Origin: Acidobacteriota bacterium
GTDB taxonomy: Bacteria; Acidobacteriota; Vicinamibacteria; Vicinamibacterales; CAVVIG01
Assembly (NCBI GenBank): GCA_017883165.1
Contig: JADGOC010000012.1
Span: 1 to 48,122, forward strand
Length of the DNA: 48,122 bases
Direction of reading: 5' to 3'
Shown: positions 36,852 to 39,481 of the stretch, one piece after another
How positions within the stretch are numbered: the first letter of the stretch is position 1
Layout of the letters: each line of letters starts with the position of its first letter
The notes under the pieces: generated by a model
The model's database searches: none
The model's input: the letters and a program-made list of their open reading frames with translations, nothing else
Told to the model about the DNA's origin: nothing
Made by a program: the position numbers and the translations under genes

Positions 36852-37967
36852 CTAGGACTTCGGCTTCCTGAGCGGCGCGCGCCTGATCGCTTCGAGCGCC
36901 TTCTCGTGATTCCAGTCGGCGAGAAACAGCTGTCCGGCCGCGCCGCCCGAGCGGCTCGACGTCCACGCGAGACGCGTCCCGTCGGGCGACGGCACCGGAA
37001 GCCCGTCGAAGCCGTCGGAGTACGTCACCCGCACCGGCTCTTTGGTGCCTTGCGAGTCGACCATGAAGATCTCGAAGTTCTCGAACCCGAGCTTGTTCGA
37101 CGCGAACAGGATGTACTCGCCCGAGGGGTGCATGTAGGGCGCCCAGCTCATCGATCCGAAATCGGTGATCCGCTTCTGGTCGCTCCCATCCGGCTTCATC
37201 GTCCACACGTCCGCGATGAGCCCCTTTTCGTCGAAGCGGCGCCAGACGATGCGCGAGCCGTCGGGAGTGAAAAATGGTCCGCCGTCGTATCCCGCCGTGT
37301 TCGTGAGCTGCTTCTGCCCCGAACCGTCGGCGTGCATGATGAAAATCTCGGCGAAGTAGCTCGGGTTGACCTCGAGCAGCTTCTGTTCCTCCGCGCTGAG
37401 CGTGCGGTTGTACGCATTGCGCATCGACGAGAACACAATCCACTGGCCGTCGGGCGAGTAGCTGCCTTCGGCGTCGTACCCGCGCGCGGTCGTGAGCCGC
37501 TTGAGCGCGTCGGTCTTCTGGCTATACACGTAGATGTCCATCTCGGGGTCGTAATCCCACGAGTAGCGCCGCTCCTTGCCCGACGCGCGAAAGGCGAGCT
37601 CCTCGTCTTGCAGCTCTTTCGATTTCGGATCGGCGTGCGTCGACGCGAAGAGGATCTCGTCGCTCCCGGGACGGAAAAACGGGCACGTCGTCTTGCCAAT
37701 GCCTGGCGAGACACGCGCCGTCTCGCCGGTTGAAAGATCGAGCGTGTAGATCTGGTAGAACGGATTGCCCGGCTCGCGCTCGCTCTGGAACACGATCCGC
37801 TGGCCGTCCGGCGACCAGTAACCTTCCCCGGCGCGCTTGCCCTCGACCGTGAGCCGGCGGACGCGTGTCAGAAAGTCACTTTCTTTGTACTGCGGGGGCG
37901 GGGCAGATGGTATTTGGCCAAAAATGCACATCACGGCCATCGCCGCGATGAGTCTGAGTGTAGGCAT
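36852..37967 (-). CDS. Exported PD40/TolB-like beta-propeller protein
   Basis: A 371-residue protein with a signal segment (4-22) and about six PD40 repeats: GEGYWSPDGQRIVFQSE, EGSYSPDGQWIVFSS, GGPFFTPDGSRIVW, WAPYMHPSGEYILFASN, GLPVPSPDGTRLAWTS. These build a propeller similar to TolB and to the N-terminal half of some peptidases. No catalytic residues are seen. It directly precedes the M28 gene and may present substrate to it. ATG 37967 has TATTAT eight bases upstream on its strand, fitting a leaderless start. Confidence 0.87.
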   Translation of the reverse strand: MPTLRLIAAMAVMCIFGQIPSAPPPQYKESDFLTRVRRLTVEGKRAGEGYWSPDGQRIVFQSEREPGNPFYQIYTLDLSTGETARVSPGIGKTTCPFFRPGSDEILFASTHADPKSKELQDEELAFRASGKERRYSWDYDPEMDIYVYSQKTDALKRLTTARGYDAEGSYSPDGQWIVFSSMRNAYNRTLSAEEQKLLEVNPSYFAEIFIMHADGSGQKQLTNTAGYDGGPFFTPDGSRIVWRRFDEKGLIADVWTMKPDGSDQKRITDFGSMSWAPYMHPSGEYILFASNKLGFENFEIFMVDSQGTKEPVRVTYSDGFDGLPVPSPDGTRLAWTSSRSGGAAGQLFLADWNHEKALEAIRRAPLRKPKS

Positions 37968-37986: not shown

Positions 37987-38607
37987 GTGACAGAGACCCA
38001 GATGTCGTTTCTTCACACACTGTCGCTTTTTGCCGGTCTGCCGCCGGAGGCATGCCGCGAGCTCGAGCCGCGGATGAAGTACCGCGAGTTTCCGCCGCAG
38101 TCGACCATCATCCGCGAGGGCGGACCAGGCAACGCGGCGTTCTTCATTCAGTCGGGCAGCGTCGCGGTCCGCCGGAAGGATCCGGCCAGCGGGATCGAAT
38201 TCCAGCTCGCCGAGTCTGTCGAGCCGTTTCTCGTGTCGGCGTCGACCGTCGGCGTGATCGTGCAGCGGCTCGCGCGGCGGCTGTGCCCGGCGCGCAAGGA
38301 GCCGTACGACGCCGACGCGGCGGCGTCGGGATATTTCGGCCTGCCGCCCGGCATCACGCTCGATCGCGTGCGCAGCTGCAACGAGTGCGGCGGCAAAGGC
38401 GTCAAGGGGCGCATCGGCGTCTACGAAGTGTTGAAGATGAACACGGAGCTGCGCGGGCTGGTGTCGCGCGCGTCGCGCGCCGAAGACATTCACGCCGCCG
38501 CGATCGCGCACGGCATGCTCGACCTCAAGCGATACTCGGCCCTGCTGCTCACCGAAGGACTCACGAGCGTCGAGGAAGTGATGAGCGTCGTCAGTGTCGA
38601 AGAATAA
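37987..38607 (+). CDS. cNMP-binding domain fused to a GspE/PilB C-terminal tail (ATPase core missing)
   Basis: A 206-residue protein made of two partial domains. Residues 6-75 (MSFLHTLSLFAGLPPEACRE…FFIQSGSVAVRRKD) are the first half of a cyclic-nucleotide-binding domain. From about residue 76 the sequence is the end of a type II/IV secretion ATPase: SVEPFLVSASTVGVIVQRLARRLCP, a zinc-finger remnant (C100, C131, C134; the expected second Cys is Arg), GRIGVYEVLKM and LTEGLTSVEEVM. Walker A, Walker B and the Asp/His boxes are absent. The frame is intact. It looks like an in-frame internal deletion of a cNMP-GspE gene. The GTG at 37987 fits the -10; ATG 38002 is an alternative. It overlaps PPK2 by 14 bases. 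Confidence 0.72.
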   Translation: MTETQMSFLHTLSLFAGLPPEACRELEPRMKYREFPPQSTIIREGGPGNAAFFIQSGSVAVRRKDPASGIEFQLAESVEPFLVSASTVGVIVQRLARRLCPARKEPYDADAAASGYFGLPPGITLDRVRSCNECGGKGVKGRIGVYEVLKMNTELRGLVSRASRAEDIHAAAIAHGMLDLKRYSALLLTEGLTSVEEVMSVVSVEE

Positions 38608-39481
38608 GGCCGGCGTGTATCTCGACCGGTTTCGCGTCCGCCCCGGCGATCGGTCGGCGCTGACCCGCGATCGTCCGGGCCACACCGGGCCGTTCTCCGA
38701 CAAGAAAGCCGCGCAGACGCATCTCGAGCACGGCGTCGTGCGTCTCGAGGCGCTTCAAGAGCGGCTCTACGCGCAAGGCGAGCACGCGCTGGTGGTGATC
38801 CTCCAGGGCATGGACGCGTCGGGGAAGGATAGCGCGATCACGCATGTGATGTCGGGCGTGAATCCGCTGGGCACCGAAGTGCACGCCTTCAAGCAGCCGT
38901 CGAGCGACGAGCTGGCGCACGATTTTCTCTGGCGCGCGGTAAAGGTGCTGCCGGCGCGCGGGCGGATCGGCATCTTCAACCGTTCGTACTACGAAGAAGT
39001 GATCGTCGTGCGCGTGCATCCCGATCTGCTCCGCACGCAGGGGCTCCCGGTCGAGCGCGTCACGCCAGCGGTGTGGAAGGAGCGGCTGGAGGACATCAAC
39101 GCGTTCGAGCGCCACCTGTGGCGGAGCGGCACGACCGTTTGCAAGTTCTTCCTGCACGTGTCGCGGGCCGAGCAGCGCCGGCGCATGCTCGAACGGCTCG
39201 ACGATCCTGCGAAGAACTGGAAGTTCTCAGAGGGCGACCTGCCCGAGCGGCGCAAGTGGCAGGCGTACCATGCCGCGTACGAGAAAGCCCTGGCGGCGAC
39301 GAGCACCAAGCACGCGCCCTGGTACGTGATTCCCGCGGATCACAAGTGGTTCGCGCACGCCTTGATCGCCGACATCATCGTGGATGCGCTCGAAGGTCTC
39401 GACCTCTCGTTTCCGAAACTGACCGCGACCGAGCGCGGGCGGCTCGCCCGCAACCGACGCGCGCTCGTCCGCGGCGCCTGA
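38594..39481 (+). CDS. ppk2: Polyphosphate kinase 2 family protein
   Basis: A 295-residue polyphosphate:nucleotide phosphotransferase. Walker A is GMDASGKDS (72-80), the lid/Walker B block is FNRSYYEEVIVVRVHP (128 onward), and GDLPERRKWQAYHAAYEKAL and TKHAPWYVIPADHKWFA are the PPK2 signatures. It regenerates NDP or NTP from polyphosphate; the exact class (AMP or ADP acceptor) cannot be read with certainty. The start is GTG 38594, inside the end of the previous gene. Nineteen bases separate it from the ABC-F gene. Confidence 0.93.
   Translation: MSKNKAGVYLDRFRVRPGDRSALTRDRPGHTGPFSDKKAAQTHLEHGVVRLEALQERLYAQGEHALVVILQGMDASGKDSAITHVMSGVNPLGTEVHAFKQPSSDELAHDFLWRAVKVLPARGRIGIFNRSYYEEVIVVRVHPDLLRTQGLPVERVTPAVWKERLEDINAFERHLWRSGTTVCKFFLHVSRAEQRRRMLERLDDPAKNWKFSEGDLPERRKWQAYHAAYEKALAATSTKHAPWYVIPADHKWFAHALIADIIVDALEGLDLSFPKLTATERGRLARNRRALVRGA

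Follow-up and report, generated by a model that had tools for sequence, protein, structure and literature searches.

The GspE (T2SS) and PilB (T4aP) motor ATPases (PDB 4pht, 3jc8) share an ATP-binding core made up of Walker A (GPTGSGKTT), an Asp box, Walker B and a His box, together with a CxxC...CxxC zinc motif. In one acidobacterial order a motor of this type occurs as a single gene of ~669 amino acids that encodes cNMP_binding (residues 28-116), MshEN (139-222) and T2SSE (283-662) domains. MshEN domains act as receptors for c-di-GMP (PMC5013675). The motor may respond to two ligands, a cyclic mononucleotide and c-di-GMP, and motors with cNMP and c-di-GMP-type input domains seem little described in the literature that we searched; a text search for the architecture returned no paper on a cNMP-GspE fusion.

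Here we analysed a window, the whole 48,122-nucleotide stretch of contig JADGOC010000012.1 from an Acidobacteriota bacterium, which contains a short relative of this gene. A first-pass annotation made from the sequence had proposed that the short gene was a decayed secretion ATPase, a new small regulator or an assembly artefact. Our data suggest that it is probably a real in-frame deletion remnant (a pseudogene) of a known motor-ATPase architecture.

The short open frame and its full-length orthologues

The short open frame (38002..38607, forward strand) encodes 201 amino acids and ends with a stop codon at 38605-38607. It corresponds to a cNMP-MshEN-GspE/PilB-type ATPase gene minus its interior. 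The start is probably ATG 38002 rather than the alternative GTG 37987, since the orthologues begin with Met at the position of this ATG. The head (38002..38214, forward strand) comprises 71 residues of the N-terminal part of the cNMP-binding domain and lacks the phosphate-binding half. It matched Pfam cNMP_binding (PF00027) over positions 2-34 of 89 with E=5e-5, which is under the gathering score because only one third of the domain is present. The tail (38215..38604, forward strand) is formed by the ~129 C-terminal residues of a GspE/PilB ATPase, lying beyond the Walker B and His boxes, and matched Pfam T2SSE (PF00437) over profile positions 260-369 of 370 with E=1.6e-14. Both halves score far beyond chance. 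The direct fusion of a cNMP-domain first part to a GspE/PilB tail, as the first-pass annotation described it, was thus borne out by the Pfam matches and by alignment with an intact orthologue.

In that alignment, with the full-length protein of genome G018, residues 4-71 matched 38011-38214 at 65% identity, nothing matched between the two ends, and residues 540-668 matched 38215-38601 at 66% identity. This places the junction (38212..38217, forward strand) between bases 38214 and 38215, after the S of LAE-S and before VEPFL, in agreement with the position near 38210-38216 that had been proposed. Compared with the G018 orthologue, ~468 codons (about 1.4 kb) are absent in frame. Across the orthologues, identity to the head (orthologue residues ~2-71) was 51-65% and identity to the tail was 61-67%. 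In the five orthologues that were measured, the distance from head to tail was 1392-1440 bp and in every case a multiple of three. Intact orthologues therefore have flanking parts that are co-linear with the short gene, from which the core is lost.

The segment that is missing from the short gene includes the cNMP phosphate cassette, all of MshEN, Walker A, Walker B, the Asp box and the His-box region. The orthologues carry FGEMALLTGKPRTAS immediately past the junction point and the short gene does not. Loss of the Walker motifs with retention of the frame had also been noted at first pass, and comparison with the orthologues gave the same result, with the ATP-binding core absent and the frame open for 201 codons. 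Against the NCBIfam cut-offs of 630 and 676 bits for GspE and PilB, the short protein scored 98 and 81 bits. The complete beta-roll and phosphate-binding cassette (FGE...PR.A) of a cNMP-binding domain are likewise absent. Judged from its sequence, the product could neither bind nor hydrolyse ATP, would very probably fail to bind cyclic nucleotide, and so would have no motor function. AlphaFold gave a low pLDDT of ~35-50 for most of the head and a moderate ~65-76 for much of the tail, from an alignment that was shallow and partly misaligned.

The first-pass annotation had the short gene overlapping the downstream PPK2 polyphosphate kinase gene (38615..39481, forward strand; PF03976, E=1.4e-68), and we find this doubtful. 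The closest PPK2 homologues begin MNIDRFRV, MDTSRFRV or MNLGRFRV, equivalent to GTG 38615, which lies 7 bp past the short-gene stop. The overlapping alternative, GTG 38594, adds 7 residues that are absent from the homologues, and GTG 38615 is probably the start. PPK2 is separate from the feature. Upstream and divergent is a TolB/WD40-like beta-propeller protein (36852..37967, reverse strand), taken from the list of open reading frames and named by sequence inspection only. No TolB/WD40-like gene lay beside the full-length gene in the orthologue loci that we fetched. A search for M28 peptidase, TolB-like, PPK2 and ABC-F genes in the neighbourhood of the full-length gene and around the PPK2 genes of the family showed no conserved context.

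Distribution of the full-length gene and other damaged copies

Full-length cNMP-GspE homologues, whose existence was one of the checks suggested at first pass, were readily found. An orthologue was detected in 11 of the 162 genomes of the order (E<=1e-22), and in seven of them it is intact and in a single frame (G001, G018, G015, G010, G040, G093 and G117). The carrier genome of the short gene is itself one of the 11. The orthologue of G004 is split across two contig ends; we considered its pieces as a case of decay and rejected this, as both run into contig ends. In G072 (L080, G072:C23:8000-15000, about 2940-2955) the orthologue has one frameshift between residues 263 and 265. It falls where the MshEN linker meets the ATPase domain, and both frames are intact apart from it. 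The G072 frameshift either reflects inactivation at an early stage or stems from an error in sequencing. Just upstream of the G072 orthologue lies a short open reading frame that resembles, by eye, a hydrogenase-maturation-type protease.

A heavily and independently decayed copy is present in a genome of another genus (G011; L040, contig C128, 2524-3336). This copy lacks residues 1-291, residues 371-458 with Walker A, and residues 615 onward, and it contains frame changes. It derives from the same orthologue as the short gene and its Walker A region is likewise gone. The lesions differ, however, since in G011 both termini are lost, there is an internal deletion along with the frame changes, and there is no in-frame fusion of head to tail.

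The short form itself did not recur in relatives, which was another of the suggested checks. We found no other example in the order (162 genomes) or in the 80 best loci that a contig scan with the tail profile returned from the named genome collection. When the named-genome contig scan was queried with the short protein it returned zero relatives. A plasmid search returned generic GspE tails only, none spanning 80% of the query. Among the 80 best named loci, the cNMP-bearing forms came from other Acidobacteriota or from records with a delta-proteobacteria or Syntrophorhabdus label, and all of them had the core. The full-length cNMP-GspE architecture was seen, for example, at L086-L088, L090 and L093 (other Acidobacteriota and records labelled delta-proteobacteria). 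Separately, a tail of this acidobacterial gene, 66% identical, was seen on a contig (JANYKU010000037.1, L085) whose label names the actinobacterial family Ilumatobacteraceae, possibly by mis-binning or transfer.

Selection on the probable remnant and its origin

In the tail of the short gene the tetracysteine motif reads CPAR...CNEC instead of CxxC...CxxC, the second Cys having changed to Arg (C26R). Cys is invariant at this site across eight orthologues and is also present in PDB 4pht and 3jc8. The tail has six changes at sites that are invariant elsewhere; the lineage of G010 likewise has six changes at conserved sites.

Branch dN/dS was estimated with our own script, a GY94-type branch model, and each of nine tips was tested in turn. 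Because synonymous sites are near saturation, these estimates of omega are rough. For the tail, omega on the short-gene branch was 0.285 (tree) or 0.20 (star) against about 0.03, with 2dlnL of 9.99 and 8.45. When G072 was dropped it was 0.50 (2dlnL 10.15) and with six taxa it was 0.18 (2dlnL 7.55). Overall, dN/dS on this branch was 0.18-0.50 against ~0.03-0.04 with 2dlnL of 7.6-10.2, and the result holds across tree shape and taxon set. The rise was the largest of the nine tips, and the only other, in G010, was weak (omega 0.12-0.13, 2dlnL 4.2-4.3). As a control, the intact PilB tail on contig C70 of the carrier genome showed no rise (0.062 against 0.056). The tail has thus been evolving under relaxed constraint since the deletion. 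Relaxation was seen in the tail alone; dN/dS of the head was not raised (0.12 against 0.10, with neutrality rejected), on a branch that includes time before the deletion.

These data bear on the possibility that the organism has a full-length gene whose core was lost in metagenome assembly or through a chimeric amplicon or read. The assembly is fragmented (334 contigs), the break of the same gene over two contig ends in G004 fits such an origin, and a recent sequencing or assembly error would leave no trace in a single sequence. However, an artefact predicts a tail that evolves as in the intact orthologues, and we observed loss of an invariant zinc-ligand Cys and a raised dN/dS, with the carrier's own PilB tail normal. 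A recombination site at the deletion edges was sought as exact repeats (within 60 bp on either side) in five relatives, and none over 10 bp was found. With no such repeat and no N in the window, collapse by k-mers or the assembler is unlikely. Moreover, the missing core is on no other contig of the assembly, in which the remaining T2SSE matches are paralogues of 32-45% identity. We therefore regard an artefact as unlikely, and we infer that the deletion is present in the organism and not just in the assembly.

The short frame has zero accumulated stop codons or frameshifts, which counts against its being a pseudogene. We asked how much weight this carries. In a frame as GC-rich as this one, a random change creates a stop about 2% of the time, so the probability of seeing none is 0.67-0.25 at 0.1-0.35 neutral changes per codon. 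The open frame is consequently weak evidence for function, and with a moderately recent deletion its survival would be no surprise.

Selection could instead have held the head-tail fusion as a new small functional protein, for instance a dominant-negative or adaptor that docks on pilus or secretion motors through the GspE C-terminal domain. The GC pattern across codon positions is normal throughout the 201-codon open frame, and relaxed constraint was not seen in the head. Nevertheless we consider this very unlikely, since the form occurs in no other of the genomes and loci searched, the cNMP phosphate cassette is absent, the zinc motif is broken, the tail is relaxed, the head fold is poorly predicted, and a promoter scan, which is weak evidence, gave no sigma-70-like match. 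That such a protein, with its truncated cNMP head and GspE C-terminal domain, is maintained to interfere with or tune the cell's intact pilus or secretion motors is very improbable.

Of the three origins offered at first pass, the decayed secretion ATPase therefore stood, supported by the full-length orthologues, the decay in G011, the raised tail dN/dS, the lost zinc-ligand Cys and an assembly in which the core is nowhere present. Nothing was found to support a new small regulator, and an artefact fits the relaxed constraint of the tail poorly. Under the deletion-remnant reading, the ancestor would have been a full-length motor ATPase of ~670 amino acids with cNMP-binding, MshEN and GspE/PilB ATPase domains, carried as a standalone gene by a minority of the order's genomes. 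A single ~1.4 kb (468-codon) deletion would have removed MshEN and the ATP-binding core entirely, along with half of the cNMP domain. A length that is a multiple of three, a 1-in-3 chance, would have kept the frame open, and the leftover tail would then have drifted under relaxed constraint. Most simply, the genome would have lost a paralogue that it could spare. Besides the short gene, it keeps at least four intact genes of the GspE/PilB type, among them those on contigs C70, C23, C227 and C284, and for this reason loss of the motor function would be tolerable. The short gene presumably has no function left.

Comparison with known motor ATPases

Gene callers can take an in-frame deletion remnant of this kind for a clean, new fusion of cNMP domain and secretion ATPase tail, which calls for caution in annotation. 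The parent architecture is of greater interest than the remnant, and the patchily distributed cNMP-MshEN-GspE motor gene appears to be undergoing loss more than once within this acidobacterial order.

The closest known relatives of the short gene are the seven intact cNMP-MshEN-T2SSE ATPases (PF00027-PF05157-PF00437), to which both of its ends are 51-67% identical, in the same order and frame. Unlike these, it lacks ~468 residues and one Cys of the tetracysteine motif. The tail aligns with the GspE and PilB motor ATPases (PDB 4pht, 3jc8) over ~125 C-terminal residues, a stretch that takes in the CxxC...CxxC region. In contrast to those motors, the short protein has no Walker A, Asp box, Walker B or His box.
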